Assembly: GCA_903895845.1 (NCBI GenBank)
Contig: CAITVK010000083.1
Coordinates: forward strand, 1-54,943
Direction of reading: 5' to 3'
Source: an uncultured Chitinophagaceae bacterium
GTDB lineage: Bacteria > Bacteroidota > Bacteroidia > Chitinophagales > Chitinophagaceae
DNA length: 54,943 bases
Shown: positions 10,482 through 42,117 of the stretch, in pieces
Position numbering within the stretch: position 1 is the stretch's first letter
How the letters are laid out: the number at the start of each line of letters is the position of its first letter
The notes under the pieces: generated by a model
What the model saw: the letters and a program-made list of their open reading frames with translations, nothing else
Database searches by the model: none
What the model was told of the DNA's origin: nothing
Position numbers and translations under genes: made by a program

Positions 10482-10708
10482 CATTTACACCGTGTAAATG
10501 AGTATTTACACGGTGTAAATGAATTTTATCCCTTCGCAACGACCATTTACACTGTCGAAATGATCATTTACACGGTGTAAATGGTCGTTTACACCGTGTA
10601 AATCTTTTTTAGCCCGTCGAAATGGTCATTTACACTGTCGCAGCGTTCATTTACACTGTCGAAATGGTCATTTACACCGTGTAAATGGTTTTTTCCACGG
10701 TGTAAATG
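10482..10708. repeat. Tandem array of 21-bp units built on a 19-bp palindrome
   Basis: About eleven contiguous units start at 10482, 10503, 10523, 10544, 10565, 10586, 10606, 10627, 10648, 10669 and 10690, i.e. steps of 21 (three of 20). The best units are CATTTACACCGTGTAAATG (10482-10500, 10669-10687) and the same with the central base flipped (10565-10583): 9-bp arms around one base. Other units keep CATTTACAC but carry TGTCGAAATG in the second half. The 10253-10952 gap otherwise shows only a promoter near 10907-10936. Confidence 0.9.
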
Positions 10709-10906
10709 AATTTATTTCTTACAAGTCTTCTTATTTCTATGGCTAAATTCTTCCAAATTATATCCTTTAAAAATTATTTTACACCACCTTAAATGAAAAA
10801 TAAGCAAATCAGTTCTTGAAAATTTCACTTCAAGGGTCGTTTATTTATAAGTGCCTCAACTAATACCTACTAACTACCATCTCATCACTAAACTAATCCA
10901 CATTTA

Positions 10907-10936
10907 TTTGTAGTATTCCATATTCAAGTATGTTTG
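10907..10936 (+). promoter_or_regulatory. Bacteroidota promoter of the arginase-family gene
   Basis: TTTG at 10907-10910 (-33) is followed by 18 bases and then TATGTTTG at 10929-10936 (-7), matching TTTG-N19-TAnnTTTG. The start codon at 10953 lies 16 bases further on, implying a leader of about ten bases. Confidence 0.65.
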
Positions 10937-10952
10937 TGAGCAAACCCACAAT

Positions 10953-12083
10953 ATGAGCATACATACGATTGTAGATTTTCTGGAGCCGATAAACCGGTAT
11001 GAACTGAGTAATGACGAGGGCTACAAGGATACCCAGCTTGGCAGGCACATCCATGCGTACGAAGAGGAGTTTCCGGACCTCACTACTGCCGATATAGTAT
11101 TGGTGGGTTGTGGCGAGATGCGTGGCGAAGGCGGCATCAACAATACCGATGGTCCCAATGCAATCCGCAGCGCTTTTTACGGCCTTTTTCATTGGCATAA
11201 AACGGTTTCAGTTGCCGATATTGGCAACGTGAAAGTGGGTGCAAGCATTCAAGATTCGTATGCGGCATTGAAAACTGTTGTGAGCGAATTGCTGGAACAA
11301 GGCAAACGCGTGGTGATATTGGGCGGAAGTCATGATGTTACGCTGGCGCAATATGCAGCCTACACACACCTGGAACAAATAATAGAAGCAACTTGTGTAG
11401 ATGCCCGGATTGACCTGAATATGGACAGCGTTTTGCCTGCCGACAACTTTTTGATGGAATTATTGACGGGTGTTCCCAACTTTATACGACACTATAATCA
11501 CCTTGGCTTCCAGAGTTATTTTGTACATCCACACATGCTGGAAGTAATTGATAGCCTACGGTTCGATTGCTTTAGGGTAGGAAAAATAAAGGAGAACCTG
11601 GAAGAGATGGAGCCGCCGATACGTAATAGTCACCTGCTTAGCTTTGATATTGCCGCCATCCAACATGCACACGCTCCTGCAAACAGACTTACCCCCAATG
11701 GTTTTACGGGTGAAGAAGCTTGTACGCTGATGCAATATGCGGGAATGAGTCAGAATATGAGTAGCATCGGCATCTATGGTTACAACCCCGATCTGGACAC
11801 GCATAACCTGACGGCGAAACAGATAAGTCACCTGCTTTGGTATATTATGGATGGCATTTATCTGGGCAAAAAGGAAGCACGCTTTGAAGACCGGGATAAC
11901 TTCTTTGAATTTACCATGGCATTCGCTGAAGTAGAGACCGTTTTTCTACAAAGCAAAAAGACAGGTAGATGGTGGATGCAGATTGATGGCGATAAATTTA
12001 TTGCTTGCAGCAAACAAGACTATATCATTGCCTCCAACAACGACATGCCCGAAAGATGGCTGAGGGCAATGGAGAGAAGCTAG
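10953..12083 (+). CDS. Arginase/formimidoylglutamase-family protein with an altered metal centre
   Basis: The 376-residue protein has the ureohydrolase fold: LVGCGEMRGEGG early, then the three metal motifs GGSHD (His127), VDARID (Asp150, Arg152, Asp154) and SFDIAAI (Asp232, Ala234). Ureohydrolases normally read GGDHS, DAHxD and SFDxD. The four ligands equivalent to the Mn-A site (His, Asp, Asp, Asp232) are kept, while the two found only at Mn-B (His in DAHxD, second Asp in SFDxD) are Arg and Ala. It may bind one metal or have lost hydrolase activity. Bacteroidota homologues are usually labelled formimidoylglutamase; no other histidine-degradation gene is in this window. Confidence 0.8.
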   Translation: MSIHTIVDFLEPINRYELSNDEGYKDTQLGRHIHAYEEEFPDLTTADIVLVGCGEMRGEGGINNTDGPNAIRSAFYGLFHWHKTVSVADIGNVKVGASIQDSYAALKTVVSELLEQGKRVVILGGSHDVTLAQYAAYTHLEQIIEATCVDARIDLNMDSVLPADNFLMELLTGVPNFIRHYNHLGFQSYFVHPHMLEVIDSLRFDCFRVGKIKENLEEMEPPIRNSHLLSFDIAAIQHAHAPANRLTPNGFTGEEACTLMQYAGMSQNMSSIGIYGYNPDLDTHNLTAKQISHLLWYIMDGIYLGKKEARFEDRDNFFEFTMAFAEVETVFLQSKKTGRWWMQIDGDKFIACSKQDYIIASNNDMPERWLRAMERS

Positions 12084-12088
12084 ATAAA

Positions 12089-12152
12089 AAGTTATGAGCT
12101 ATAAGTTATGAGTTATAAGTTATGAGTTATAAGTTATGAGTTATGAGTTAGA
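12089..12152 (+). repeat. Heptamer tract, left of the four-helix-bundle gene
   Basis: About nine imperfect 7-bp units alternate between TTATGAG and TTATAAG. The tract begins six bases after the arginase-family stop codon and ends 20 bases before the ATG at 12173. Its reverse complement lies at 12533-12560 on the other side of that gene. Confidence 0.85.
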
Positions 12153-12172
12153 TTTGAAGCAAAATAAGGATT

Positions 12173-12544
12173 ATGAGTGAAAGAAAGAGTACAATGAAAG
12201 ATAAAAGTTTCGCTTTTTCAATCCGAATAATAAATCTTTATAAATATTTAAGTAAGTCTAAGAAAGAATTTGTGGTTAGTAATCAATTGCTAAGAAGTGG
12301 TACAGCGGTGGGTGCATTGATAAGAGAAGCTCAGAATGCAGAGAGTGGCAAAGATTTTATTCATAAACTAAGTATTGCGCAAAAGGAATGTGACGAATCA
12401 TTATATTGGTTAGAATTATTGATAGCAACTGACTTCTTAACATCAACTGAATTTGAAAGCATAAACAAAGAAGGGACTGAACTTTTAAAAATGCTTAGGA
12501 GCGCAATAGTTACCTCCAAAAAAAACGCCCCCCATAACTTATAA
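12173..12544 (+). CDS. Four-helix-bundle protein (23S rRNA intervening-sequence/bAvd family)
   Basis: The 123-residue product matches the family found in 23S rRNA intervening sequences and related to the accessory protein Avd of diversity-generating retroelements. The signature is visible: LLRSGTAVGALIREAQNAE (about residues 41-59), then FIHKLSIAQKECDESLYWLE (about 63-82). Biochemical role is unclear; a basic nucleic-acid-binding helical bundle is the general view. A second ATG at 12194 is a possible start. The last codons and stop (12536-12544) are supplied by the downstream heptamer tract, and the gene sits between inverted heptamer arms. Confidence 0.88.
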   Translation: MSERKSTMKDKSFAFSIRIINLYKYLSKSKKEFVVSNQLLRSGTAVGALIREAQNAESGKDFIHKLSIAQKECDESLYWLELLIATDFLTSTEFESINKEGTELLKMLRSAIVTSKKNAPHNL

Positions 12545-12560
12545 CTCATAACTTATAACT
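12533..12560 (-). repeat. Heptamer tract, right of the four-helix-bundle gene
   Basis: Four 7-bp units (CATAACT, TATAACT and the like) are the reverse complement of the tract at 12089-12152. They overlap the end of the four-helix-bundle gene and stop seven bases before the GTG start of the aminotransferase. Confidence 0.85.
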
Positions 12561-12566
12561 AAAAAA

Positions 12567-13757
12567 GTGTCTTTAAGAAATCTCTTTCTAGCCCACATTG
12601 CACAAACATCCCCTGCACCAATAGGATTGGAAATGGAGCGGGCGGAGGGTATCCATATTTATGATACCGATGGGAAGGCGTATGTGGATATGATCAGTGG
12701 TTTTAGTGTTGCTAATATCGGACATAGTCATCCCAAAGTGGTTGAAGCAGTTCAACAACAGGCAGCAAAGTATATGCACCTGATTGTATATGGCGAATAT
12801 ATTCAGCAGCCACAAGTTGCCTATGCACAACTGCTTAAGAGCCTCCTCCCCTCTTCGCTTAACTGTGTTTACTTCACCAATAGCGGCGCAGAAGCAACTG
12901 AAGGGGCTATGAAACTGGCAAAGCGAGTGACGAACAGAAGCCAGATTATTTGTTTTAATAAAGCCTATCATGGTAGTACGCAAGGGGCTTTGAGCGTGAT
13001 GGGTGATGAATATTTCAGAAATGCCTACAGACCTTTATTGCCAGATATTCTTCATTATGATTATAATAGTCAGGAGGCAATTGATGCCATCAGCGACAAG
13101 ACTGCTTGCGTTATCATGGAAACGGTGCAAGCTGAATCGGGCATCGTACCACCTAACGCAGACTGGATAAAAGCAATCAGACAAAAGTGCAATGCACACT
13201 GCTCCTTATTAATCCTCGATGAAATTCAGGCAGGCTTTGGAAGAACGGGAAGCCTTTGGGCTTTTGAGCAGTTTGGTATTATTCCAGACATTTTGTTATT
13301 GGGAAAAGCAATAGGAGGCGGAATGCCACTGGGTGCATTTGTTGCCGACAAACGACTGATGGATACGTTTACTTATAATCCGGTGTTGGGACATATTACC
13401 ACTTTTGGAGGACATCCTGTAAGTTGCGCTGCGGGTAAAGCTGGGTTAGAAGTATTACTTGAAGGGAAATATATAGCTGCAATAAAGGCGAAAGAAGCGT
13501 TGATGTTGGCATTGATTCAGCATCCGGAAATTATTACCCGTAGACATTGCGGCTTATGGATGGCGGTTGAGTTTGATAGTTTTGCGACCAATCATGCTAT
13601 CATAAAGAAATGTATTGAAAACGGATTAATTACGGATTGGTTTCTATTTAATGATAGAAGTCTACGTATTGCCCCTCCATTGATTATCACAGATGAAGAA
13701 TTGAGAAGGATGTGTGAGGTGATTGTAAAAAGCATTGAGGAGGTAGTACGCAAATAA
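12567..13757 (+). CDS. Class III (acetylornithine/ornithine/4-aminobutyrate type) aminotransferase
   Basis: This fold-type I PLP enzyme has 396 residues. Landmarks are YFTNSGAEATEGAMKLA (about residues 104-120, phosphate binding), CVIMETVQAESGIVPP (about 182-197), LLILDEIQAGFGRTG (about 213-227) and the Schiff-base lysine Lys247 in LLGKAIGGGMPLGAF. The start is a GTG; it keeps the usual N-terminus LRNLFLAHIAQTSPAPIGLE, which the first ATG (codon 24) would delete. The amino donor cannot be assigned. The heptamer tract reaches to within seven bases of the start, so any promoter must lie inside or beyond the tract. Confidence 0.88.
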   Translation: MSLRNLFLAHIAQTSPAPIGLEMERAEGIHIYDTDGKAYVDMISGFSVANIGHSHPKVVEAVQQQAAKYMHLIVYGEYIQQPQVAYAQLLKSLLPSSLNCVYFTNSGAEATEGAMKLAKRVTNRSQIICFNKAYHGSTQGALSVMGDEYFRNAYRPLLPDILHYDYNSQEAIDAISDKTACVIMETVQAESGIVPPNADWIKAIRQKCNAHCSLLILDEIQAGFGRTGSLWAFEQFGIIPDILLLGKAIGGGMPLGAFVADKRLMDTFTYNPVLGHITTFGGHPVSCAAGKAGLEVLLEGKYIAAIKAKEALMLALIQHPEIITRRHCGLWMAVEFDSFATNHAIIKKCIENGLITDWFLFNDRSLRIAPPLIITDEELRRMCEVIVKSIEEVVRK

Positions 13758-13772
13758 CCTAGTTTACAGCCC

Positions 13773-15752
13773 TCAATTAACTCCTTTAAAAGCCTTCTTC
13801 ACCATATCCAGATGCGCAATAAACTTATCTACATCAGCATCATACCCATACTTTATCTCACTTAGCGGATTGCCTTTTAAGTCCAGAAACATATATAATG
13901 GCTGTGCATTAAAGCCGAATTTTGTTATCTCATAATCAAGATTCTTCTCTCCCACTGTTGTTATCTTATCACCTTTAGCGGTTGTATACTGCTCTGTAGC
14001 TGGTAGTTCAGTACTTTCGTCCACATATAAACTAATCAATACAAAGTCTTCTTTCAAACGCTTCAATACCGCTTCATTCTTCCATACTTTCTCTTCCATC
14101 TTACGACAATTGGTACAAGAATGTCCGGTAAAGTCAAGCATCACGGGTTTATTCAATGCTTTTGCAGCAGCTAATCCTTCTTCAAGATCAAAGTAAGCAG
14201 TGAGTCCGAAAGGGACTTTCAGTTTATCAGTGTACTTCTTGGGGGCAACGGAGTTATTATTTGAGGAAGCTGAAGAAGTATTATTACCTATACCATATTG
14301 AAGATTATCCAGATTGAAATCTTGTGTGGTAGCAGGAGGAATCAAGCCACTCAAAGGCTTAAGCGGCGCACCCCACAATCCGGGAACCATATACAATGCA
14401 AAGCAAAAAGCCGCAATAGCAAAGAATAAACGAGGTACACTGATGAACTGCAGGACACTATCGTGAGAGAACTTCAACTTGCCTATCAGGTAATAACCCA
14501 ACAAGAAGAAATTGACAATCCAGATAGTCAAGAAAACATCTCTATCCAACAGATTCCAATGGTAGATAAGATCTACATTGGAAAGAAATTTCATTGCAAG
14601 TGCTAACTCTACAAAGCCAAAAGATACTTTAACCGAATTGAGCCAGCCACCACTCTTTGGCAAAGCGTGAAGCATTGATGGGAAGAATGCAAACAATGAG
14701 AAAGGCAGTGCCAGGCCCATACCAAAACCGAGCATCCCGATGACGGGTGCCAAGCTAATACCTTCGCTACTTGTTTGCCCGAGCAGTGTACCAACAAATG
14801 GACCAGTGCAAGAGAAAGAAACAATTGCCAGCGTCAATGCCATAAAGAAGATACCAGATATACCGCCCTTACCTGCTTTTTCATCGGCTTTGTTGGCCCA
14901 ACTATTAGGAAGGGACAACTCAAAGGCACCAAAGAAAGAGATGGCAAAAACAATAAATATGGCAAAGAACAACAGATTGGCCGTGGCAGAAGTGGAGATA
15001 GAATACAATACCGAATTGCCAAACAACAAGGTAAGCAGTAAGGTAGGCACCGTATAAATGCCAATGATGGACAAAGAATAGATGAGTGCGTTTCGAATGC
15101 CTGCCTGATGCGATCCACTACGTTTGATAAAGAAACTAACCGTAACAGGTATCAGTGGGAATACGCAAGGTGTAAACACAGCTAACAATCCCGCTAACAA
15201 TGCAATGATGAAAGTCCTGATTAAAGACATCTTCATTGCTTTGGTTTTAGAAGTTGGAGCAACAGTCTTTTGTGCATTGACTGTTACGGTGAACTTTTCT
15301 TCTCCCGAAGGAAACTCATCCCCTTTTTTACTTAACCAAACAAAATAGCCTTTGAGCGTAATGGCACTATCCTTATAAATATGCAAGGGAAACAAGAACT
15401 TAACCGAATCTGAAAACAAACGATAACTAGTACCATCTGGTTGCCTGATTGATTGCAATGTACCCACTTCGGTAGCAGTATCCTTTGCATTCATTAGTTT
15501 CAAGAACGCGGTGTCCAGCTTTAAGGCAGATACAAAAACATCAGCCTCATTGTTTTTCTTCACAGAAAACAGCTGCCATCCTTTAGGGATATTAGCAGAG
15601 ACCATTAATGTTTGCAAAGAATCATTGACAGGTACGGTGCTAAAACTAAACTGCACAGAAGGCTGGGTCTGTGCAGTAGCTTTGAAAGAAGTTGTTGCCA
15701 AGACAAAAGTCAGCAGCAACAAATATATATTTCTAAATGGGGTATTTATCAT
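13773..15752 (-). CDS. dsbD: Thiol:disulfide interchange protein DsbD
   Basis: DsbD carries electrons from cytoplasmic thioredoxin across the inner membrane to periplasmic thiol proteins. The 659-residue protein has a signal peptide, an N-terminal periplasmic beta domain (to about residue 165), an eight-helix transmembrane core with FTPCVFPLIPV and SCTGPFVGT as its two redox cysteines, and a C-terminal thioredoxin-like domain with HSCTNC (Cys546 and Cys549). Its ATG overlaps the stop codon of the gene upstream (TAATG), so the two are translationally coupled. A Ser/Asn-rich linker joins the core to the thioredoxin domain. Confidence 0.93.
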   Translation of the reverse strand: MINTPFRNIYLLLLTFVLATTSFKATAQTQPSVQFSFSTVPVNDSLQTLMVSANIPKGWQLFSVKKNNEADVFVSALKLDTAFLKLMNAKDTATEVGTLQSIRQPDGTSYRLFSDSVKFLFPLHIYKDSAITLKGYFVWLSKKGDEFPSGEEKFTVTVNAQKTVAPTSKTKAMKMSLIRTFIIALLAGLLAVFTPCVFPLIPVTVSFFIKRSGSHQAGIRNALIYSLSIIGIYTVPTLLLTLLFGNSVLYSISTSATANLLFFAIFIVFAISFFGAFELSLPNSWANKADEKAGKGGISGIFFMALTLAIVSFSCTGPFVGTLLGQTSSEGISLAPVIGMLGFGMGLALPFSLFAFFPSMLHALPKSGGWLNSVKVSFGFVELALAMKFLSNVDLIYHWNLLDRDVFLTIWIVNFFLLGYYLIGKLKFSHDSVLQFISVPRLFFAIAAFCFALYMVPGLWGAPLKPLSGLIPPATTQDFNLDNLQYGIGNNTSSASSNNNSVAPKKYTDKLKVPFGLTAYFDLEEGLAAAKALNKPVMLDFTGHSCTNCRKMEEKVWKNEAVLKRLKEDFVLISLYVDESTELPATEQYTTAKGDKITTVGEKNLDYEITKFGFNAQPLYMFLDLKGNPLSEIKYGYDADVDKFIAHLDMVKKAFKGVN

Positions 15753-16207
15753 TATTGCAGCTTAATATCAAACGACTTTTTGGTGGGAGGCAAACACTGA
15801 TCATCATTACAAACCATATATTCAATCGTTCCTGTAATATTTGTTTTAATTCCGGGCTTCACTTTCACTTCCTGCGTAAAAACAACAGAATTTGAATAAA
15901 ACAAAACATCTGTATGAAAGGCGTTGTCATATATCTTCTCTAGCTTGCCTGTTTCTTTCGGGGTACCCACTAGCTTTACCAATGGATTGGGTGCAAACTT
16001 AATTTCGGTAGGTACTGGTCCACTCTTACCTGTGTTTTGAGAATAGATATGCCAAGGCTTTTTTACAGTGGCAGTAATTTTTACTTCATACCCCTCGCCT
16101 TTTGGTTTTGCTTCATATCTAAAGTCCACTGGATTCTTTACCTGTGCACCAACCATTGTTACAAATGCCAAAGCAAATATTACTAAAAGAATCTTTTTCA
16201 TAATCAT
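15752..16207 (-). CDS. Secreted stand-alone DsbD N-terminal-domain protein
   Basis: The 151-residue protein has a signal peptide (MKKILLVIFALAFVTMVGAQ) followed by one DsbD-alpha-like immunoglobulin fold. KKPWHIYSQNTGKSGPVPTE and the C-terminal YMVCNDDQCLPP, with a C-x5-C pair, match the domain that receives electrons from DsbD and reduces periplasmic targets. Its stop overlaps the start of dsbD and it begins four bases after purQ. It probably works as a separate electron-accepting partner, extra to the N-terminal domain DsbD still has. Confidence 0.88.
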   Translation of the reverse strand: MIMKKILLVIFALAFVTMVGAQVKNPVDFRYEAKPKGEGYEVKITATVKKPWHIYSQNTGKSGPVPTEIKFAPNPLVKLVGTPKETGKLEKIYDNAFHTDVLFYSNSVVFTQEVKVKPGIKTNITGTIEYMVCNDDQCLPPTKKSFDIKLQ

Positions 16208-16211
16208 TCTA

Positions 16212-21923: not shown

Positions 21924-23039
21924 CTATCCCTCATAAACAAGAAATTGGTTGTGGATATAATCTACAACTTCTATCAGACTGCCAGAATCTTCAAATACTT
22001 TAAGTTGTCTGTCGGCACCGGTACCTCTTTCCATCATCGTCTCAATATAGCTGATTATATGACGACTACCTAGTTCATCTACAACATCATCCACAAAATC
22101 GAGAAGTTCAAGTATCAGTTTTCTGGCAGGGACTTCTATTTCTTTGCCAAAATCAATCAGGTTACCTTCAATACCATATCGGCTTGCACGCCATTTGTTT
22201 TCATTAATCAATGCCCGCTGATAGATCATAAAGTTCATATTCTGATTCCTTAGTTTATACAACTTAGCACAAATAGCCTGAAACAAGGCAGCTATCGCCA
22301 TTGTCTCTTTGATGGTAAGGGGCACGTCGCATACCCTGAATTCGATGGTATTAAAAAAAGGATGCACGCGCATATCCCACCAAACCTTCTTGGCATTATC
22401 AATACAATTTGTTTTTATAAGTAACTGAATAAAATTATCATAAGCCTCTATACTCTCAAAATATTCGGGGATACCAGTGCGTGGAAACTTGTCGAACACT
22501 TTGGAGCGATATGACTTGTACCCCGTCTTCCGTCCAATCCAGAAAGGCGAGTTGGTACTAAGGGCGTACACATGTGGCAGGAAATAACGGGCTGTATTGG
22601 CAATATGGATTGCCAACTTTCTGTTGGTGATGCCCACATGAACATGTAGGCCAAAGATGAGGTTGCTGCGGGCAGCTTCCTGCAATTCGTTTACCATCTC
22701 CTGATAGCGGATGTTATCTGTTATCAGCTGACTATTCCAATGGCTAAACGGATGGGTGCCACTTGCCCCTACCCAGAAGCCCATACTACCTGCAATGTCG
22801 GAGATATTGTTACGGAGATTAGAAACGTCCAGAAAAGCTTCGTCGACGTCTTTGCAAATGTCGGTACCTACTTCTACCACAGCTTGGTGCATTTCGGCTT
22901 TCACCTTATCTTTCATCAGTTTTTGCCCTTCTGCAACAATTCGTTGTTGGTGACTTTTCAGTGCACGGGTAGTTGGGTCTAGTACCATGTACTCTTCCTC
23001 GATGCCAATAGTAAAACTACTTAAATTAAGGTTACTCAT
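21924..23039 (-). CDS. Carboxylate-amine ligase of the GCS2/YbdK family
   Basis: This ATP-dependent ligase family includes YbdK, a weak glutamate-cysteine ligase. The 371-residue protein begins with the hallmark FTIGIEEEYMVLDP (residues 9-22); the acidic EEE binds metal. NLIFGLHVHVGI (about 120-131) and MRVHPFFNTIEFRVCDVP (about 220-237) follow the family. The true substrate of most members is unknown; glutathione synthesis is only one option. It faces rlmK across a 670-base gap holding a MITE-like element and a 21-bp array. Confidence 0.88.
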   Translation of the reverse strand: MSNLNLSSFTIGIEEEYMVLDPTTRALKSHQQRIVAEGQKLMKDKVKAEMHQAVVEVGTDICKDVDEAFLDVSNLRNNISDIAGSMGFWVGASGTHPFSHWNSQLITDNIRYQEMVNELQEAARSNLIFGLHVHVGITNRKLAIHIANTARYFLPHVYALSTNSPFWIGRKTGYKSYRSKVFDKFPRTGIPEYFESIEAYDNFIQLLIKTNCIDNAKKVWWDMRVHPFFNTIEFRVCDVPLTIKETMAIAALFQAICAKLYKLRNQNMNFMIYQRALINENKWRASRYGIEGNLIDFGKEIEVPARKLILELLDFVDDVVDELGSRHIISYIETMMERGTGADRQLKVFEDSGSLIEVVDYIHNQFLVYEG

Positions 23040-23121
23040 ACTTTGCTTTTCACAATCTAGTTTAAGGTTGTTCGGCTATAAAAATAGGTTATTCGTTATA
23101 GATATAAAACTATTTGTTGTT

Positions 23122-23289
23122 CAGAAGCTGTTTAAGTTGATTGTTTAGAATTATTTACGAGGGTTTATTTGATTGGAACAAGGCAAATTTTGCAGCAATA
23201 GTCCAACGCCTAAGGTGAAAAATTTAACGCAGTTGCAGTCAAAATTAAATCCCATAAAGAACATCAAATAATTAACTCCAACAGCTTCT
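23122..23289. mobile_element. MITE-like element with imperfect terminal inverted repeats
   Basis: The left end AGAAGCTGTTTAAGTTGATT (23122-23141) and the right end (23289 back to 23262) are inverted copies: ten identical terminal bases, AGAAGCTGTT, then about 60 percent match for 18 more. The 168-bp interior has no reading frame. A third copy of the end alone is at 24826-24854. This fits a non-autonomous element or an IS remnant; no target duplication is obvious. Confidence 0.55.
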
Positions 23290-23330
23290 TAGTTTAAGAA
23301 AAAGAGAAGATGAACCGCAAAGACCTGTAG

Positions 23331-23582
23331 CGCGTTTAAAGCATAGAGAGTCAACTTTGTGCATACTGTTTATCAGATAAAACGGAGGCAACATCAAATA
23401 AACCCCACCAGACCGACAATGTAGCATACATGAAGACGAATAAACCTCACACGACTGACAATGTAGCATACAAAAAGTCAAATAAACCCCACCAGACTTA
23501 AGATATAGGCTAGGCAACATCAAATAAACCTCATCGCGGGTAAGATATACCCCATCAATTTTCAAATAAAACACATCCCTTA
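23331..23582. repeat. Tandem array of 21-bp units, two alternating types
   Basis: Ten units in strict 21-bp register start at 23373, 23394, 23415, 23436, 23457, 23478, 23499, 23520, 23541 and 23562, with two weaker ones before them. Type A reads like TCAAATAAACCCCACCAGAC; type B, like GACAATGTAGCATACA, has an inner TGTA-GCA-TACA palindrome. Type A resembles the inside of the MITE-like element just to the left (GGGTTTATTTGA reversed). Because 21 is a multiple of three, the minus strand stays open for about 100 codons by chance. Confidence 0.88.
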
Positions 23583-23694
23583 ATCCAAAAAACTACCCAA
23601 TACTTCAATTTAGAAGTACATTGTTTCACAAACCAGCATCTCTTAACCATTGTAGAAAACGGAGCATGATGCACAAATAAGCCTTATCCAACTG

Positions 23695-23702
23695 TACTTT
23701 TG
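23695..23702 (+). promoter_or_regulatory. TAnnTTTG (-7) motif of rlmK
   Basis: TACTTTTG matches the -7 consensus and ends four bases before the ATG at 23707. Transcription would begin at the start codon, or the next ATG at 23719 is the real start. Confidence 0.4.
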
Positions 23703-23706
23703 GGCC

Positions 23707-24651
23707 ATGAATGAGAAAATGGCAATGTTTCACAATCGGTTGCTCAAGGTGTACAAGCATAAAAGCAAGCAAGCCATCAGGCAAAACATTACTTGCTATC
23801 GTGTGTACGACCATGACCTCCCCGAGTTTCCATTTTGTATAGAGTTATATGACGATAAGGTTTACCTGGCTGAATACCTTCGTCGGCATGGCATGACCGA
23901 TGAGGAGCATGAGCAATGGTTGGAAGAGTGCGTTACAGCTATTTGCGGGATATTACCTGTAACTGATGCCAATGTATATATTAAACAAAGAAAAAGGAAG
24001 TCTAATAGACTCGATCAATACGAAAAAACAGATACCAAGGCCGAATACTTTTCTGTAGCAGAACAAGGGCTTCAGTTCTTGGTAAACCTGACGGATTATC
24101 TGGATACTGGTTTGTTTTTGGATCATCGCATAACCAGACAAATGGTGCGCAACGAATGCAAAGAGAAACGTGTATTGAACTTATTTGCCTATACAGGTTC
24201 GTTTTCCGTATATGCAGCAGCAGGTGAGGCCGCATCAGTAACAACAGTAGATTTATCTAAAACATACCTTACTTGGGCAGAGCAGAACTTGGAACTGAAT
24301 AACCTGAAGAATGAGTCTAAACACTTTTTCATCCATGCCGATGTCAAACAATACCTTAAGACTTTGCAACCAAACAGCTTCGACTTAATAATAATAGATC
24401 CGCCCACCTTCAGCAACAGTAAACGGATGAAAGACTTCCTCGATATCCAACGCGATCATGTAGAGTTATTGAATGATGTAATTGCTGCTACCACTACAGG
24501 TGGAACAATTTACTTTAGTACCAACTTTACTAAGTTCTTATTGGATGCCGAAGCAATAAAGGCCACTTCTATCAAAGACATTACTAGGGCAACAACCCCA
24601 TTCGATTTCGAAGGGAAACTAAAAAGATGGTGCTATAAAATTAGCGTCTAG
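23707..24651 (+). CDS. rlmK: 23S rRNA (guanine-N7)-methyltransferase, stand-alone RlmK type
   Basis: The 314-residue protein corresponds to the C-terminal half of E. coli RlmKL, the part that makes m7G2069 in 23S rRNA. Clear matches are CYRVYDHDLPEFPF near the start, FLVNLTDYLDTGLFLDHRI (about residues 119-137), the SAM motif NLFAYTGSFSVYAA (about 157-170), TTVDLSKTYLTWAEQNL, and the catalytic-region DPPTFSNSKRM beginning at Asp231. There is no RlmL (m2G) half or THUMP domain. Alternative ATGs lie at 23719 and 23725. Confidence 0.9.
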   Translation: MNEKMAMFHNRLLKVYKHKSKQAIRQNITCYRVYDHDLPEFPFCIELYDDKVYLAEYLRRHGMTDEEHEQWLEECVTAICGILPVTDANVYIKQRKRKSNRLDQYEKTDTKAEYFSVAEQGLQFLVNLTDYLDTGLFLDHRITRQMVRNECKEKRVLNLFAYTGSFSVYAAAGEAASVTTVDLSKTYLTWAEQNLELNNLKNESKHFFIHADVKQYLKTLQPNSFDLIIIDPPTFSNSKRMKDFLDIQRDHVELLNDVIAATTTGGTIYFSTNFTKFLLDAEAIKATSIKDITRATTPFDFEGKLKRWCYKISV

Positions 24652-34716: not shown

Positions 34717-34729
34717 AATTATTTTAATA

Positions 34730-34818: not shown

Positions 34819-34819
34819 T

Positions 34820-36430
34820 TTAGTGTGCTTCTGCAGCTGCTTTTTTCATAGCATCCAACTCAGCCTGTGTTTTCTTTTTAGTTGTCAGGAACATTGTCAA
34901 CGGCAATACCAATACAAAGAAGATGGCAATCAGCCGGAATGTGTCCAGATACGCCAAATAATAAGCCTGTCGCTCAACGGTTCTTTCCAATACACTCAAT
35001 GCTTTTGATGCGGCACCAACTGCATCCCCCGTCTTGCTAAGAAACCCTTGCGTAAGCATATTCAATCTTTCCGTCAACAAAGGAGAATCTTTTGGCATAG
35101 CACTCACCAAGTTCATGCGGTGATCAGAATATCTGTTGGCTATGTAATTATTTGCTATCGCAATACCAAAAGCGCCTCCTAACTGTCGTATCATATTATT
35201 CAATCCGATTCCTGTAGCATAATCCTTCGGCTGCAATCCGGCGACTGCCTGATTGATCAAAGGCAACTGACAGAATGCTATACCAATGGCACGTACAAGT
35301 AATGGATAAAAGAAATCACCTTTACCTACATCCAAGCTTACACTCGCACTCATCATACTGTAAACAGAAAAGAGGATATAACCAATAATTATCAATGGGA
35401 TTGGCGATAAGCCCTTGCTCATACCTATGCCAATAACAGGCATTAGAAATACACAACAAAGTGTAGGTGCAAGAAGAGTAAGGCCTGTTTCGTAAGCAGT
35501 GAAGCCTAATACCCTTTGTGCTAAAACAGGAAATACAAACACAGAAGTGTAAAGCCCAAAACCTGCCACAAAAGTAAAAATGGTCGTGAAGGCCAGATTT
35601 CTGTTCTGCATTACCCGAAGGTTTACCGCTGGCTGTTTTATATTGAGTTCGTAGAGAATAAAAGCGATTAGACCAATAGCTGCAAATACAGAACAGTATC
35701 TGATAATCTCACTGCTGAACCAGTCTTCACTTTCACCACGTTCCAATACAAACTGCAAACAGCCAATACCTACCATCAGCAAGAGGATACCTGTATAATC
35801 TATCTTGATACTATCCTTTTTCTTCCCTTCATTCGGTTTCTTGTTGATGAATGTAAAAGAAAGAACTGTTGCAATGATACCGATTGGGATATTAATCATG
35901 AATATCAATGGCCAAGAGGCATGGTCTATGATGTATCCGCCCAATGTTGGTCCCAATGTTGGTCCCAACACGATACCCATCCCGAATAAACCAGAAGCTT
36001 TAGGTCTGTCCTTAGGTTCAAAAGCATCAAAGAGGATAGCTTGTGAGGTAGACAATAAGGCGCCGCCCCCAATACCTTGCACAAACCGCCAGATAATTAT
36101 TTCTATGAGCGAATGGGATTGTCCGCACATGTAAGATGCGATTGTGAAGATAATCATCGATACAATATAGTAATTCTTTCTGCCGAAATATTCAGCTAAA
36201 AAGCTTGTAAGCGGTATGATGATTACGTTTGCGATGGCATAAGAAGTTATCACCCAACTGATATCTTCTATGCTCACTCCAAGGCTTCCGCTCATGTCAT
36301 TGAGTGCCACGTTTACAATAGACGTGTCCACCAATTCCATGATCGCTGCCGTAATGGTAGTGATAACTATTATCGCCCGCGCCAACCCTGTTGGATATAC
36401 GATTGGCTGGGCTACAGAAGCTGATGACAT
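34820..36430 (-). CDS. emrB: DHA2-family (EmrB/QacA) multidrug efflux transporter
   Basis: A proton-driven major facilitator with 14 predicted membrane helices in 536 residues. Family motifs are LVDTSIVNVALNDMSGSLG (helix 1), WVITSYAIANVIIIP (helix 2), RFVQGIGGGALLSTSQAIL with the following GLFGMGIVLGPTLGPTLGGY (antiporter motif C, helix 5). It is the inner-membrane pump of a tripartite system with the HlyD and TolC proteins on either side. Regulation by the TetR gene at the head of the cluster is likely. Confidence 0.93.
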   Translation of the reverse strand: MSSASVAQPIVYPTGLARAIIVITTITAAIMELVDTSIVNVALNDMSGSLGVSIEDISWVITSYAIANVIIIPLTSFLAEYFGRKNYYIVSMIIFTIASYMCGQSHSLIEIIIWRFVQGIGGGALLSTSQAILFDAFEPKDRPKASGLFGMGIVLGPTLGPTLGGYIIDHASWPLIFMINIPIGIIATVLSFTFINKKPNEGKKKDSIKIDYTGILLLMVGIGCLQFVLERGESEDWFSSEIIRYCSVFAAIGLIAFILYELNIKQPAVNLRVMQNRNLAFTTIFTFVAGFGLYTSVFVFPVLAQRVLGFTAYETGLTLLAPTLCCVFLMPVIGIGMSKGLSPIPLIIIGYILFSVYSMMSASVSLDVGKGDFFYPLLVRAIGIAFCQLPLINQAVAGLQPKDYATGIGLNNMIRQLGGAFGIAIANNYIANRYSDHRMNLVSAMPKDSPLLTERLNMLTQGFLSKTGDAVGAASKALSVLERTVERQAYYLAYLDTFRLIAIFFVLVLPLTMFLTTKKKTQAELDAMKKAAAEAH

Positions 36431-36440
36431 AATTTATTTA

Positions 36441-36560
36441 GTTATGAATTATGAATTATGAGTTATAAGTTACGAATTGCGAGTTTAAAATAATTAGTTA
36501 CTAGGAGGACTACTTAAGTCATTCCTAAAACTTATAACTCATAATTCATAACTCATAACT
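36441..36560. repeat. Heptamer tract in inverted arrangement between hlyD and emrB
   Basis: Left arm 36441-36480 (TTATGAA, TTATGAG, TTATAAG units); right arm 36530-36560 is the reverse complement; about 50 bases lie between. The TAG stop of the hlyD gene (36559-36561) is the first unit of the right arm. Confidence 0.8.
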
Positions 36561-37599
36561 ATTTCGTTGCTACCACATACACACTTAAGCCAGCACGTAG
36601 TAATGCTTTGTATTTGGCGACTTCATTGATCCAGATTTTCACTGGTACACGTTGTGTAACTTTTACGAAGTTTCCGCTGCTGTTGTCTGGTGGTAACAAA
36701 GCGAACCTTGCTCCTGTAGCATCGCTGAGGCTTGCAACAGTTCCTGTCAGTTTCAAATCGGGATAGGCATCTACCCTCAAGTCTACTTGTTTGCCTTCTG
36801 TTAAAGAAGCAATCTGACTTTCCTTAAAGTTAGCAACTACCCAGAATGTGGTATCATTTACAATAGCAAACAATGGAGTACCTGCTTGCACAAACTGCCC
36901 TTCGCTCACATTCTTCTTACCAATTTTTCCAGCTTGCGGAGAGAATATCTTGGTATAAGTCAGCTTCAATTTAATCTGATCAATTGCCGCTTGCTTCACA
37001 GCCATTGTTGCTTCCGCCCTCTTAACGGCAGACTGCAATACGGCAATACGGCTCTGCGCAGAACCCAAATCATTGTGGGTATTGTCCAAAGATTTCACAG
37101 CTGTTTCATAAGCAAACTTGCTATCATCCAATTGTTTCTTGGTAATAGCTTCGGCTGCATACAAGCTCTTATTCCGGTTGTACTCTTCCAGGGCTTGTGC
37201 CTTCTTAACATCACTGATGTCTATGTTCCCTTTGTTAACATTCAACGAAACTTCTGCATTGTTCAGAGAAGCCTTGGCATTGATAATGTCTACCGCTGCT
37301 TGTGCATACTCGGCTTGTGCCGCTTGCAGTTGTGCCTGCAACTCTGCATCATCCAGTTCTGCAACCAGCTCACCAGCTTTCACGGTGTCATAATCATTTA
37401 CTGTAATGCTCTTCACATAACCAGATACTCGGGGAAGTACTGGTGTAATTTGTGTTTCTACTTGCGCATTGTCTGTTGTTTCGTGGGTAAAAACAAAACT
37501 GATTTGTTTGTATCCAAAGAAACCTCCAACCACTAATACCAGACCTAATATAATAGGTCTAACCAGCGAACTCTTTTTTTTGTCTTGCTCTTGTGCCAT
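36559..37599 (-). CDS. emrA: HlyD/EmrA-family periplasmic adaptor of the efflux pump
   Basis: The 346-residue membrane-fusion protein has an N-terminal anchor helix (IILGLVLVVGGFFGYKQI, residues about 13-30), a biotinyl-lipoyl-like half (TPVLPRVSGYVKSITVNDYD), a long alpha-hairpin (about residues 88-215) and the second lipoyl half (KIFSPQAGKIGKKNVSEGQF), then a beta-barrel. It links EmrB to the TolC-type duct. It follows the TetR gene by 32 bases. Confidence 0.93.
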   Translation of the reverse strand: MAQEQDKKKSSLVRPIILGLVLVVGGFFGYKQISFVFTHETTDNAQVETQITPVLPRVSGYVKSITVNDYDTVKAGELVAELDDAELQAQLQAAQAEYAQAAVDIINAKASLNNAEVSLNVNKGNIDISDVKKAQALEEYNRNKSLYAAEAITKKQLDDSKFAYETAVKSLDNTHNDLGSAQSRIAVLQSAVKRAEATMAVKQAAIDQIKLKLTYTKIFSPQAGKIGKKNVSEGQFVQAGTPLFAIVNDTTFWVVANFKESQIASLTEGKQVDLRVDAYPDLKLTGTVASLSDATGARFALLPPDNSSGNFVKVTQRVPVKIWINEVAKYKALLRAGLSVYVVATK

Positions 37600-37631
37600 G
37601 TGTTTATTGTTTTGTTATTAAAATTTAATTA

Positions 37632-38267
37632 TTACTTATGATTACTACTTTCTACTAAAAGGTGTGCGTGTATCATGCTCTTTATGTGCGTCACCAACCG
37701 TTGTTTAAACTTTTCATCCGTGTACGGTTCATTTGCTTCTGGTTGAGAGAGTAAAAGATTGCACATACTCTTAGAAACAACCACTTGTGAAATGCTACCA
37801 ATTATAGAGGTCACCGTCAATATTGGATCTACTTCCTTAAACATCTTTTTGTCGATACCCCTTTGTATGATTGCTGCGAAGTTTCTGGTATTTCTCGCTA
37901 TGGATTTATTTAAGAATGAGTGAATTACATCCCTTTTTGTGTCCATCATTTCTTTGTATAAGAATTTATGAAAGCTTGCACCAGACAATATCCTGTTCAC
38001 ATAATCTTCTATCAGTGCATCTATTTTATCTAATTCCGAAAGACTGGCATTTGATTCCAGTTCCTCTATCCTATCCTTCATGTAAGAGGCTTTCTCGTCT
38101 AATATTGCCTCTACCAGTTTCTCCTTACTACCAAAATAGTAGTTGACCATTGCCACGTTTACGCCCGCTTCGTGTGCCAGATCCCTGATACTTGTTCCTT
38201 CAAAGCCCCGATCCGCAAATAGCGCAATTGCGTGATTCATTATGTGGGCTTTCTTATCAACTGCCAT
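37632..38267 (-). CDS. TetR/AcrR-family regulator of the efflux operon
   Basis: Taken from the ATG at 38267, the product is 211 residues; the frame is open eight codons further. The N-terminal helix-turn-helix reads IMNHAIALFADRGFEGTSIR followed by DLAHEAGVNVAMVNYYFGSK. The C-terminal helices bind an unknown ligand. A perfect 14-bp inverted repeat directly upstream is its likely operator, so it probably represses its own operon with the pump genes. Confidence 0.92.
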   Translation of the reverse strand: MAVDKKAHIMNHAIALFADRGFEGTSIRDLAHEAGVNVAMVNYYFGSKEKLVEAILDEKASYMKDRIEELESNASLSELDKIDALIEDYVNRILSGASFHKFLYKEMMDTKRDVIHSFLNKSIARNTRNFAAIIQRGIDKKMFKEVDPILTVTSIIGSISQVVVSKSMCNLLLSQPEANEPYTDEKFKQRLVTHIKSMIHAHLLVESSNHK

Positions 38268-38296
38268 TGTAATTGCATTTAGAAAGTGCAAATATT

Positions 38297-38329
38297 AAAC
38301 AAACGTTTGAATAAATCAAACGTTTGTTT
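38297..38329. promoter_or_regulatory. TetR operator: perfect 14-bp inverted repeat
   Basis: AAACAAACGTTTGA (38297-38310) and its exact reverse complement (38316-38329) flank five bases. Each arm holds the ten-base palindrome CAAACGTTTG, so there are two overlapping levels of symmetry and room for two dimers. A near-consensus promoter (TTTG-N19-TAATATTTG) overlaps it on the minus strand. Confidence 0.8.
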
Positions 38330-38524
38330 AGTTTTTTCCAAAATAATAAACTCCTATGTGGCAATCAAAGGAAAACGCAATAGCTTATTATTTGTTCGCA
38401 ATACCAATTCTGAATTCTTTTTAGGGTAATTTATCTCTTTGGTAGTGGTTCTTCATTATATTTGAGTGATTCAACACCAGAGCGGTACTATTATCATCAA
38501 CAGCGTCACTAAACTTTGAAAAAT

Positions 38525-39268
38525 ATGGCAGTGCAAACAAAGAAATTTGAGATTGGTATCCATACGATATCCTACGAATACGAAGACACGACGCCCTGGA
38601 CGGAGTCGGATGAATTGCTGGAGAAAACACACCTTGCACTTGCAGAAAGAGAGGCTAGAATCAGGGAAATGATGTATGCTTCTCTCAATGAATATTCCCC
38701 GATCGACAAAGACATCCAGGAAGTAAGGACATTCTTGATGTTGATTAAAGACCTCTCGAAGGAGGCAAGGGATGAAGCCGACTTTTATGTGGAATCGTTG
38801 ATGCAGATGGACGATTATAGTAAAGATTCTTTGGGTGAAAAAGTAGAAACCGCTGTAAAAGCCTTTGAAGAATACCACAAGAAGTTGCTTTCATTGGAAC
38901 CCGGTATCAAAAAGCTGTCCGAATTCATTAATCAATACGTGGAAATGAGCGAGGACATGGCTCAATGGGAAAACCATTCCGAAATAATGAGTAACCATTA
39001 CAATAATTGGGCGACCAACAGCATTGACATCTGTTCTTTTGATAGGGAGATGGAGCGGTTTTATGCTTTTGTGAGTGTAAACAAAGATTCCAACAGTGGC
39101 ATTTATAGGTTATTGGATGGATATATCCTCGATTACAACAAACTCATGTTAGAAACTGAAGGTCAATATAGTCTTTGGGAAGAATTTGCAAAAAGAGTAG
39201 ACCTGTTGAACAAAATGGTGAAGGTAAAAGTGCCTGCCATGAATGCCGATGATTTAAACCTGAATTAG
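38525..39268 (+). CDS. Helical cytoplasmic protein of unknown function
   Basis: The 247-residue product (ATG at 38525) has no signal peptide or membrane segment. It is acidic and strongly helical, with heptad-like runs such as ELLEKTHLALAEREARIREM (about residues 24-43) and SKEARDEADFYVESLMQMDD (about 78-97), so coiled-coil packing is likely. I recognise no family. It is divergent from the TetR gene and single. Its TAG stop (39266-39268) is the first unit of a long TTAGATA heptamer run, followed by a terminator. Confidence 0.7.
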   Translation: MAVQTKKFEIGIHTISYEYEDTTPWTESDELLEKTHLALAEREARIREMMYASLNEYSPIDKDIQEVRTFLMLIKDLSKEARDEADFYVESLMQMDDYSKDSLGEKVETAVKAFEEYHKKLLSLEPGIKKLSEFINQYVEMSEDMAQWENHSEIMSNHYNNWATNSIDICSFDREMERFYAFVSVNKDSNSGIYRLLDGYILDYNKLMLETEGQYSLWEEFAKRVDLLNKMVKVKVPAMNADDLNLN

Positions 39269-39335
39269 ATGTTAGATATTAGATATTAGATGTTAGATAG
39301 TAGATATTAGATAGTAGTTATTAGATAATAGATAG
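39266..39335 (+). repeat. Heptamer tract of ten TAGATAT-like units
   Basis: Ten consecutive 7-bp units each begin with TAG, the first being the stop codon of the upstream gene. Variation is mainly at unit positions 6 and 7. There is no inverted arm here; a terminator hairpin follows directly. Confidence 0.9.
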
Positions 39336-39376
39336 ATCCCTTGGGGCTGAATGCTTCAGGGGATTTTCGTTTTTCA
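39336..39376 (+). terminator. Intrinsic terminator after the helical unknown gene
   Basis: ATCCCTTGGGGC (39336-39347) pairs with GCTTCAGGGGAT (39353-39364) with G-U pairs allowed, followed by TTTTCGTTTTT. Confidence 0.75.
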
Positions 39377-39467
39377 AGGCGACTCACCTATTACAAAACC
39401 TTCTTTTAAAGCAGTGTATTCCTTTCTGTATCATACCATTGATATTTAGGATTAAAACATTTACATC

Positions 39468-41672
39468 ATGAAACATTTACTCCCCCTTCTGTTCATTCCG
39501 TTGTTTATTTCAGCACAGCATCCTGCTTCTTCGGAGATAACCCGTTGGCAAAAGCACGCTGCCCAGTCAACAATTATCCGGGATAACTATGGCATCCCAC
39601 ATATTTATGGCAAAACCGATGCTGATGCCGTTTTTGGCTTACTCTACGCCCAATGTGAAGACGATTTTAGTCGGGTAGAGATGAATTATATAGACAAACT
39701 GGGGCGACTTGCCGAGGTAAATGGTGAGAAAGATTTATATGCCGATTTATTGACCCGTTTGATTATAGATACAACCGAGGCAAAGACCGATTATAAAAAT
39801 AGTCCGGTATGGTTACACAAGTTGATGGATGCTTTTGCAGATGGCGTAAACTACTATCTATACAAACATCCCAATACCAAGCCTGCTTTACTGCATCATT
39901 TTGAATCTTGGTATGCGTTGTTGTGGACAGATGGAAGCATTGGCGCCATCAGTACGGCAGGATTGGGCAAGAAAGACCTAAAAGATTTCTATGGGAATGA
40001 GGGGGTGGCTTCAATCAATCAAAATACTTCTTTTGATGAAACCGACATCAACACTGCCGATGAGAAGTTGACAGGGTCCAATGGTTTTGCCTTTGCGCCT
40101 TCCATCACCCAGAACGGACATGCCATCTTATATTTAAATCCGCATGTAACGCTGTATTTCCGTCCCGAAGTACACTTGGTTAGTGAGGAAGGTCTCGATG
40201 TTTATGGCGTTGTTACCTGGGGACAATTCTTTTTGTACCAAGGCTTCAACGAACATTGCGGTTGGATGCACACGTCTAGCTATGTGGATGTTTCTGATTC
40301 GTACAAAGAGAAAGTGAGCAAGCAAAATGGCAAATGGGTGTACGAATATGAACATCAGTTTAAGCCAGTTATGGAGAAAAGCATTCGAATCAGTTATAAA
40401 AAGGGTGATTTGATCAAGACAAAAACCATCACTGCATTCTTCACACATCATGGCCCTGTAATGGGCATGCAAGGAAGCGACTGGTTGAGCGTACGGTCGT
40501 ACAATCGCTCTATGATTAGCCTTGAACAGAGTTGGTTGCGCACCAAAGCCAATGATTTTGCCGCTTTCAAGAAGGTGTTGGATATGCGTGCCAATACTTC
40601 CAACAATACTTTTTATGCCGACGACAAAGGCAATATCGCCTATTGGCATGGCAACCATGTACCCATCCGCGATGCCCGCTTTGATTGGAATAAACCTGTG
40701 GATGGCACTACTGCGGCTACCGAATGGAAGGGTCTGCATCAGGTTAATGACCTCATCCACATGGAAAATCCTAGCAATGGATGGCTTCAAAACTGTAACA
40801 GCACGCCTTTTTCTGTTGCCGGGGACAATAGCCCGAAACGAGCCGATTATCCTGTGTATATGGCACCCGACGGTCAGAACTTCAGGGGCGTAAATGCGGT
40901 GAGGGTATTGCCTCGAGAAAAGAAATATACCCTCGATAAGGTAATCGCCGCAGGCTATGATACCTATCTATCTTTCTTTGAGAAGGTAGTTCCCGAATTG
41001 ATAAAAGCATACAATAGTTTACCCGATGATAGCGCCAAAACAGCTTTGTCCGAACCCATTTCTGTACTTAAAGCATGGGATTATCGATCGGGAGAACACT
41101 CTGTGGCGACTTCCTTGGGCGTTACCTGGGGCACACAACTACTTCCTTTTATCAATAATAAAGAAGAAATGGAAACGTATGATGACATTGTAACCAGAAC
41201 AGAAAAGTTTGCTGCCAACCTATCCAATGCGACCGTGATGTTGGCACAATTTAAAGAAGCCATCAACAATTTAACCACCAACTATGGCAAATGGAACGTG
41301 GAATGGGGTGAAATAAATCGCTTTCAACGGATAGATGACAACATCGAATTGCATTATGACGATGCACAACCAAGCATCCCCATGGGACTAACTTCTTCTC
41401 AATGGGGGCAGATACCTTCGTACACAAGCAAGGCATTTCCCAACACAAAAAAGAGGTATGGGGTAAACGGAAACAGCTTTATCTGCGCAGTAGAGTTCGG
41501 TAAACGGATAACAGCCAAGAGTTTGCTGGCAGGAGGGGAGAGTGGCAACCCATCCTCGCCACACTTCACCGACCAAGCCGAGATGTACACTAAAGGAAGG
41601 TTCAAAGATGTCTTATTCTACAAAGAAGATGTACTGAAACATGCCGAGAAAACCTATCATCCGGGGGAGTAA
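39468..41672 (+). CDS. Penicillin-acylase-family N-terminal-nucleophile hydrolase
   Basis: The 734-residue protein has a signal peptide (to about residue 16) and the layout of the penicillin G acylase/acyl-homoserine-lactone acylase family: alpha part with IIRDNYGIPHIYGKTDADA (about 36-54), a spacer, and the beta chain starting at the nucleophile Ser204 in TGSNGFAFAPS, preceded by Gly as required for self-cleavage. FNEHCGWMHT and NTSNNTFYADDKGNIAYWHG follow the family. Mature enzyme should be a periplasmic heterodimer that cleaves an amide; the acyl substrate is unknown. It is transcribed alone. Confidence 0.88.
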   Translation: MKHLLPLLFIPLFISAQHPASSEITRWQKHAAQSTIIRDNYGIPHIYGKTDADAVFGLLYAQCEDDFSRVEMNYIDKLGRLAEVNGEKDLYADLLTRLIIDTTEAKTDYKNSPVWLHKLMDAFADGVNYYLYKHPNTKPALLHHFESWYALLWTDGSIGAISTAGLGKKDLKDFYGNEGVASINQNTSFDETDINTADEKLTGSNGFAFAPSITQNGHAILYLNPHVTLYFRPEVHLVSEEGLDVYGVVTWGQFFLYQGFNEHCGWMHTSSYVDVSDSYKEKVSKQNGKWVYEYEHQFKPVMEKSIRISYKKGDLIKTKTITAFFTHHGPVMGMQGSDWLSVRSYNRSMISLEQSWLRTKANDFAAFKKVLDMRANTSNNTFYADDKGNIAYWHGNHVPIRDARFDWNKPVDGTTAATEWKGLHQVNDLIHMENPSNGWLQNCNSTPFSVAGDNSPKRADYPVYMAPDGQNFRGVNAVRVLPREKKYTLDKVIAAGYDTYLSFFEKVVPELIKAYNSLPDDSAKTALSEPISVLKAWDYRSGEHSVATSLGVTWGTQLLPFINNKEEMETYDDIVTRTEKFAANLSNATVMLAQFKEAINNLTTNYGKWNVEWGEINRFQRIDDNIELHYDDAQPSIPMGLTSSQWGQIPSYTSKAFPNTKKRYGVNGNSFICAVEFGKRITAKSLLAGGESGNPSSPHFTDQAEMYTKGRFKDVLFYKEDVLKHAEKTYHPGE

Positions 41673-41824
41673 GCCCCTACTTTCTTTGGTATTGTTGGCT
41701 GCTAGGATGTTGCTAAATAACTGTAAGGCTGCAATAGCCATTAGTTGAGGATTACCGTAAATGGGAATGAGTTTTTGTCCGACAAGAAGCAAATCTACAG
41801 CCGCATAACTGGTTTACTGGTCAT

Positions 41825-42117
41825 ATTGAATCGTTTTTAGCGGCCCTATGAGCCACTCATCGGGCTGAGAAAATGGTTTTCACGGCTGTATGAGCCGCTC
41901 ATTGGGCTATTTGCTGGTTCAACAAGACACTATACTGGCTTTGACAGCAGTAATTTTCGTTCATTCTGCCATATAAATGGTTGAATTATCTGTATGAGTG
42001 GCTCATCGGGCTGAATGAGTCATTCATAGAGCCATGAAAATCATTTTCACAGCCCGATGAGCCATTCATACAGCGCTAAAAATGATTTATCGGCTTAGAT
42101 TTTCGCCCCATTTTAAA
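41825..42117. repeat. Tandem array of 21-bp units with co-varying palindromes
   Basis: About 14 units in 21-bp steps (one 20) start at 41825, 41846, 41867, 41888, 41909, 41930, 41951, 41971, 41992, 42013, 42034, 42055, 42076 and 42097. Many hold a short palindrome whose two arms change together: ATGAG-CCA-CTCAT, GAAAA-TGG-TTTTC, ATGAG-CCG-CTCAT, ATGAG-TGG-CTCAT, TGAAAATCATTTTCA. A G/C-rich linker like CGGGCT separates them. The gap 41673-42421 shows no gene; outside the array I see nothing. Confidence 0.88.

Follow-up and report, generated by a model that had tools for sequence, protein, structure and literature searches.

BrickBuilt, a 23-nt minisatellite inside a miniature inverted-repeat transposable element (MITE) of Porphyromonas gingivalis, has, in the part of its description consulted (PMC4596501), one unit sequence, a leader, a tail and inverted-repeat ends, with 19 copies in strain ATCC 33277. 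It is, on that partial text, the closest published relative found for the three intergenic tandem arrays considered here, A1, A2 and A3, which lie in a contig of an uncultured Chitinophagaceae bacterium (CAITVK010000083.1, assembly GCA_903895845.1); the whole 54,943-nucleotide stretch is hereafter called the window. The likeness covers occurrence in Bacteroidota, intergenic location, spacerless tandem units of about two helical turns, multiple copies and presence or absence among strains (same part of PMC4596501). The arrays of the window and those like them elsewhere in the genus differ from BrickBuilt in being head-to-tail rows of 20–22 bp with many unrelated units and, in the members inspected, no constant ends, and a site keeps the period while the sequence differs.

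Repetitive extragenic palindromes (REPs) and the REP-associated tyrosine transposases (RAYTs) offer a second comparison. As far as the available part of PMC3733652 describes them, REPs share with these arrays an intergenic location, multiple copies and variable families, and their short palindromic form may have a counterpart in the 23 of 51 arrays with dyads; they have as their own a GTAG or CGTC tag and a tie to Y1 transposases. The present arrays run head to tail without a spacer, and none stands beside the two Y1 matches of the source genome. Heptamer repeats of the TAACTGA type are, in the part of PMC4679880 consulted, abundant intergenic tandem repeats of period 7 that occur in some Bacteroidetes too. 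They were treated as a separate phenomenon because of that period and because 7-bp arrays were also found in other genera of the family. No description of a genome-wide 21-bp rule was found in the open-access literature, searched by titles and the beginnings of abstracts, with subscription papers and preprints largely outside the search.

Plasmid iterons and par centromere repeats also have a spacing of about two helical turns, and their protein binds the same face of the DNA side by side. Two turns of B-DNA amount to 20–22 bp. Iterons and par repeats occupy one site per replicon and have one cognate protein, whereas here an extrapolated 220–290 arrays per genome have unrelated units. The sequence of eukaryotic satellite DNA evolves fast. 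Where satellite units are nucleosome-sized, unit length matches a protein footprint, according to the part of PMC8122249 available; this is an analogy only, the present arrays being bacterial, dispersed, about 200 bp each and made of much shorter units.

Results

The self-match of all three window arrays at lag 21 or 42 exceeded that of 300 dinucleotide shuffles. For A1 it stood out at lags 21 (z = 13.5) and 83 (z = 13.6), for A2 at lags 42 (z = 9.9) and 21 (z = 5.3), and for A3 at lags 42 (z = 7.2) and 21 (z = 5.9). The best observed values for A1, A2 and A3 were 0.771, 0.567 and 0.462, against shuffle maxima over lags 4–109 of 0.448, 0.442 and 0.386. Tandem Repeats Finder alone recovered A1 (21 bp) and A2 (42 bp) and missed A3. 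The units of the three arrays were not significantly alike in profile comparison (p = 0.82 for A1–A2, 0.064 for A1–A3 and 0.73 for A2–A3), and BLAST gave no link among them. A sequence-only reading of the window had reported three arrays at the coordinates of Table 1 with mutually unrelated units, and both statements are borne out. The check that it had proposed, for a surplus of 21-bp arrays of unrelated units in this genome and its sister species, gave a positive result on the wider scale described below; the contrary outcome, 21-bp arrays no commoner than those of other periods, was not observed.

The source genome (G000; 4.01 Mb in 138 contigs, the window being part of it) was compared within a genus sample of 939 kb from 13 genomes (G000–G012) and one named relative (L044), whose membership of the genus was assumed. 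Counts from this sample are non-random, several stretches of G012 and G007 having been picked by their match to G000 loci, array loci included. Intergenic arrays of at least four units numbered 70, of which 38 had periods of 20–22, 41–42, 62 or 65 bp, 31 had periods of 7 or 14 bp, one had a period of 10.5 bp and none fell elsewhere. Among shorter arrays, 9 of 34 had periods away from multiples of 20–22. When 82 segments were fitted over a search range of 17–25 bp, 55 gave a coherent period; 51 of these lay at 20.0–22.0, with periods of 20, 20.5, 20.75 and 22 represented, and the other four at 18.3, 19.0, 19.75 and 24.8. All 292 steps between neighbouring units measured 20, 21 or 22 bp, in arrays preselected for a coherent period. 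The fraction at 20–22 bp was 660/667 with denser sampling, 522/528 with 150 bp of flank added and a stricter threshold, and 928/975 with a looser threshold, at which shuffles gave 106 steps. A2 and A3 were added by hand to the step counts, the BLAST grouping and the unit-pair comparison, two partial A3 rows being dropped from the BLAST grouping; the step, unit-pair, harmonic and curvature tests were confined to arrays that exceeded 100 bp and whose coherent period lay at 19.9–22.1.

Such a narrow range of steps could be held without any protein or function. In a neutral pool, a single 21-bp array in the ancestor of the genus would have given rise to copies at many places, which slippage, unequal exchange and conversion between arrays then made different, and the period would persist as only units in register exchange. 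Outside arrays, 81 of 184 intergenic indels between G000 and its sister species were of at least 2 bp. A toy drift model run on this indel spectrum kept the period at 20–22 in just 22–41% of lineages over 10–21 unit substitutions, which counts against a neutral pool as weak evidence, the model ignoring in-register import.

The persistence of a period through changes of unit sequence was followed at single sites. The array at L033:9529–9757 lies in the trpD–trpC gap, within a same-orientation cluster of four trp genes. Arrays of period 20.5–21 occupy this gap in eight of the 11 resolved species (G000, G011, G010, G012, G007, G009, G006 and G001), that of G012 being short at three to four units; the gaps of G002 and G003 were not resolvable and were left out of the count. 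The units of the eight arrays fall into five families. G000, G011 and G010 share one and G006 and G001 another (within-family profile p of at most 0.001), and those of G007, G009 and G012 are each unlinked (p of at least 0.069). Their sequences are compatible both with common descent and with separate entry into the gap. Beside the gene L031:475–2151, a full array, all of one family, stands in G012, G000 has only about two units, and G007 has a hybrid array in which left units of the G012-array family and right units of the L033 family stand in one register. Site and period appear, on these comparisons, to outlive the unit sequence. Two families joined in a single register are also what a neutral pool would be expected to leave.

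Most of the 1225 array pairs compared were no closer than column-permuted units, with a mean unit similarity of 7.88 against 7.82 in the null, which argues against a neutral pool of common descent. A score of at least 11 was reached by 18 of the 1225 pairs against 0.1% in the null (about one expected), some of them across families, and this excess favours such a pool. By BLAST, 20 of 63 arrays fell into eight groups and 43 were single. No word common to all 51 arrays was found. A universal motif, GYCGC/GCGRC, was considered and set aside: 9 of the 51 arrays contained it at least twice, where 2.7 would be expected (the maximum of 300 permutations being 8), and these came partly from related families. 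Coding for heptapeptides, at seven codons per unit, was also rejected, as the periods are not all divisible by three.

The density of the arrays was estimated from G000. In a 326-kb sample that includes the window and holds 49.6 kb of intergenic DNA, 24 of 52 intergenic tandem arrays had lags of 7 or 14, 25 of 52 had lags of 20–22 or multiples, and three had other lags (19, 19 and 26). Shuffled intergenic segments gave no arrays in the same type of scan. A less biased sample of 19 G000 stretches (251 kb), with the window and the contig C56 left out, gave 16–18 arrays of the 21-bp class depending on the open reading frame (ORF) mask, or one per 14–16 kb; the 18 arrays under the laxest mask were 126–328 bp long, with a detection floor of about 90 bp. 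Two of these arrays lay at stretch ends, where assemblies tend to break at repeats, and allowing for them the extrapolation is roughly 220–290 arrays per genome. Most genomes were fragmented assemblies, and some contigs break at arrays, as does G012 at L031:12185.

Arrays of this class were present in all 12 other genomes of the genus, unequally. G004 showed only a 64-bp pair at lag 40, G002 one array at lag 61, and G001 one, at the trp site; one was found in L044. Applied to 18 other genera of the family, 554 kb in all, the same intergenic scan found no array of the 21-bp class; G019 and G028 contributed only 2 and 507 intergenic bases to it. Segments of 19 bp (three), 23 bp (one) and 24 bp (two) did turn up in this control and, when it was scanned without the coding mask, one 68-bp match of 21-bp period in L304. 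None was found in 530 kb of Chryseobacterium-group DNA, whose 59 loci represent one gene neighbourhood in 59 related genomes rather than independent samples. Searches for A1 gave no match in plasmids, and one exact A1-type pattern had none in viral contigs. Restriction to the genus fits the single origin that a neutral pool supposes.

Arrays occupy gaps between tandem, divergent and convergent genes and, in one case, a gap within an operon, a distribution that argues against a role in promoter control. A function at the RNA level, in which rows of hairpins in transcripts would affect stability or termination, drew support from the dyad symmetry that exceeded a column-permuted null (p of at most 0.05) in 23 of 51 arrays and from the array inside the same-orientation trp cluster. 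It is nonetheless barely credible, since the arrays occur in gaps of all three orientations, 28 of the 51 have no significant dyad, a hairpin needs no 21-nt period, and no Rfam model matched the window at the gathering threshold. Over 48 arrays, the harmonic at 10.5 bp was raised, with a z of the mean of 4.5. The fundamental at 21 bp was raised to a smaller degree (2.9), and the third harmonic, at 7 bp, was not raised over all bases (0.3; 1.7 for the A+T signal alone). An origin of the arrays from heptamer repeats was discarded, there being no clear 7-bp harmonic.

The histories of single arrays bear on how they arise and move. A1 has a gapless orthologue in G012 with 83.3% identity over 227 bp, whereas the flanks show 61–75% and third codon positions of the next gene 68.6% (258/376); that the array is better conserved than its own flanks, at this one locus, speaks against a neutral pool. 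A1 is 97% identical, within the array, to a relative at a separate G000 locus, on C56. As this identity exceeds the 83% between orthologues, it points to conversion between loci, which a neutral pool would predict, and the stretch that A1 and C56 share may be a conversion tract. The gene next to the C56 array has a G012 counterpart (75% amino-acid identity) that also stands beside a related array. At L030:12385 the unit differs in concert from that of the G012 orthologue. The array at L030:8367 is absent from G007, and at L031:6787 G012 retains at most one unit-like stretch. Separately, a dispersed repeat of about 100 bp at L030:12257–12357, beside a 21-bp array, has matches at more than 10 places in G012 and G007.

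Compared with G007 and G010, both of which lack an array there, the array at L031:12185–12406 is an insertion; four further loci of G000 (C111, C28, C53 and C48) carry relatives of it. These features suit MITE-like mobile elements that carry a minisatellite and are moved by a transposase in trans, as does the precedent of BrickBuilt, which is such an element. Inspection by eye of C111 and C28 beside L031:12185, all of one family, revealed no common leader, tail, terminal inverted repeat or flank; at the insertion itself, a single site, no clear target duplication and no inverted ends were seen; and many families have just the period in common. Mobile elements of this type are accordingly improbable. 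Mobilisation by Y1/RAYT transposases was rejected as well: G000 has two PF01797 matches, one of them weak, with no period-21 array within about 1.5 kb, the Y1 type being the only one searched.

By coordinates the L031:12185 array is also missing from G003 and G004. The gap is about 710–770 bp in six species, and ORF calls place small genes there in several. Over L031:12158–12434, ORF calls in G011, G002, G009 and G008 give two small genes, G000 has the array, and G007 and G010 have nothing. A mutational ruler, that is, a putative enzyme that repeatedly duplicates or copies pieces of 20–22 nt, would make new arrays of arbitrary sequence with a set period. The same period whatever the sequence would follow directly; small genes in other species at the L031:12185 gap, the position of A3 in a block that differs between species and that of A2 at a place where a near relative has different ORF calls would suit it too. 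Since relatives at other loci, or an orthologue, exist for several arrays, these were not newly made from local DNA, which leaves such a ruler very improbable.

Table 1 Arrays and shared stretch in the window (positions in the window; no strand assigned).
Feature	Position	Description
Array A1	10482..10708	About 11 units of 20–21 bp (mean 20.8 bp, some steps being 20), consensus ATTTACACCGTGTAAATGATC, palindromic core
A1/C56 shared stretch	10433..10803	91% identity, array and short flanks
Array A2	23331..23582	Mainly 42-bp (2 x 21) alternation, two 21-bp unit types
Array A3	41825..42117	About 14 unit lengths of 21 bp, mainly 42-bp (2 x 21) alternation, palindromic cores, e.g. TGAGCCGCTCA

Each of the arrays in Table 1 has relatives elsewhere in G000, those of A2 being on C118, C67 and C42 and that of A3 on C116. 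A1 stands between genes for an Mrr-type endonuclease (-) and an arginase-family protein (+), A2 between a GCS2-family gene (-) and an S-adenosylmethionine (SAM) methyltransferase gene (+), and A3 between a gene for penicillin amidase (+) and one that matches no Pfam family (+). A 100-residue frame over A2 (23272–23574, -) masked that array in the fixed-lag scan and was judged spurious. The middle of A3 is degenerate (about 41909–42014), and the scan caught just both ends. In place of the roughly 4 kb of the window that hold A3 and the penicillin amidase gene (39252–43281), G012 has about 148 bp at the corresponding position, on C177, and an amidase match of G012 lies on a different contig, C11. 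In a near relative, L043, the match to window positions 23039–23707 upstream of the GCS2-family gene is confined to about 52 bp. ORF calls upstream of that gene differ in L043, so that A2 may lie at a break in gene order; L043 has a 21-bp array of its own further upstream.

Arrays of 7-bp units are many in the window. Intergenic ones lie at 7902–7992, 36440–36560, 39264–39334 and 43710–43741. Two 7/14-bp arrays, at 12089–12150 and 12533–12560, have related, inverted sequences (AAGTTATGAGTTAT and CATAACTTATAACT), and between them is a gene (12173–12544) of the 23S rRNA intervening-sequence protein family.

Discussion

We tentatively read the arrays, with confidence somewhat short of even, as a genus-specific, satellite-like class of DNA in which unit length is kept and unit sequence is nearly free, through phasing read by a protein. 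Unit families would replace one another at a site, arrays would shrink away and leave remnants behind, and the period would outlast the letters. Each unit would offer the same helix face to a putative protein that recognises the shape or dyad geometry of the DNA and ignores the letters, possibly one dimer per two turns with neighbours bound side by side. Arrays whose neighbouring units came out of phase would lose function and vanish, and homology-driven exchange among many arrays would keep rewriting the letters. Since arrays occupy gaps of all gene orientations and even a position inside an operon, their likely use would be architectural, in condensing or bridging the chromosome or in anchoring its loops. 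A more specific proposal, in which geometry but not sequence is inherited across some 220–290 arrays per genome (extrapolated), a letter-blind, helix-phased protein sets the unit length and orthologous sites stay occupied, seems on balance unlikely.

Several observations weigh against protein phasing. The binding protein is hypothetical, proposed from the spacing, and more than half of the arrays are without a significant dyad. Intrinsic curvature was rejected as the shared property: the predicted median of 43 arrays, from wedge parameters, was 1.118 against 1.135 in the flanks (p = 0.88), and with wedge and twist parameters the predicted curvature of the arrays was also not above that of column-permuted copies. 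Of two parameter sets for predicted twist, one gave a weak correlation with period (rho = 0.33, p = 0.024) and the other none. With the looser threshold, 47 of 975 steps fall outside 20–22 bp, and arrays of constant 20- or 22-bp units drift round the helix, so only phasing from neighbour to neighbour could be conserved. The trpD–trpC gap is without an array in G004 (61 bp), G008 (149 bp) and G005 (1364 bp, with a weak left flank), and no single array is therefore essential. Unit exchange between existing 21-bp arrays can, moreover, keep a period without selection.

The last point makes a neutral pool that exchanges units in register a serious rival to protein phasing, quite possible though short of probable. 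A constraint on the period is favoured only modestly, because the hybrid array in one register was directly seen. Helical phasing by a protein fits the observations and is unproven. The sequence-only reading had proposed that a process or protein fixes spacing and symmetry and leaves sequence free. Fixed spacing with free sequence is supported by the trpD–trpC site and the 20–22 bp steps; symmetry is not general, with dyads beyond the null in 23 of 51 arrays. Its protein stays conjectural, given curvature no higher than in the flanks and in-register exchange that could hold the period instead. The instability that it had named as a sign to the contrary was seen in part, in arrays that some species carry at a given place and others lack.

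Sequence is what normally identifies a repeat. The arrays described here, of about 200 bp, have in common a rule of length, not of sequence, throughout a genus. If a protein enforces the period, the bacterial chromosome would be marked by geometry alone, and the arrays would offer a small model for why the unit length of satellite DNA is kept while its sequence changes. By analogy, a letter-blind protein would then rule unit length in the way proposed for nucleosomes and eukaryotic satellites. If no protein is involved, the arrays would provide a clean natural case in which to measure unit exchange and the holding of register in tandem repeats.

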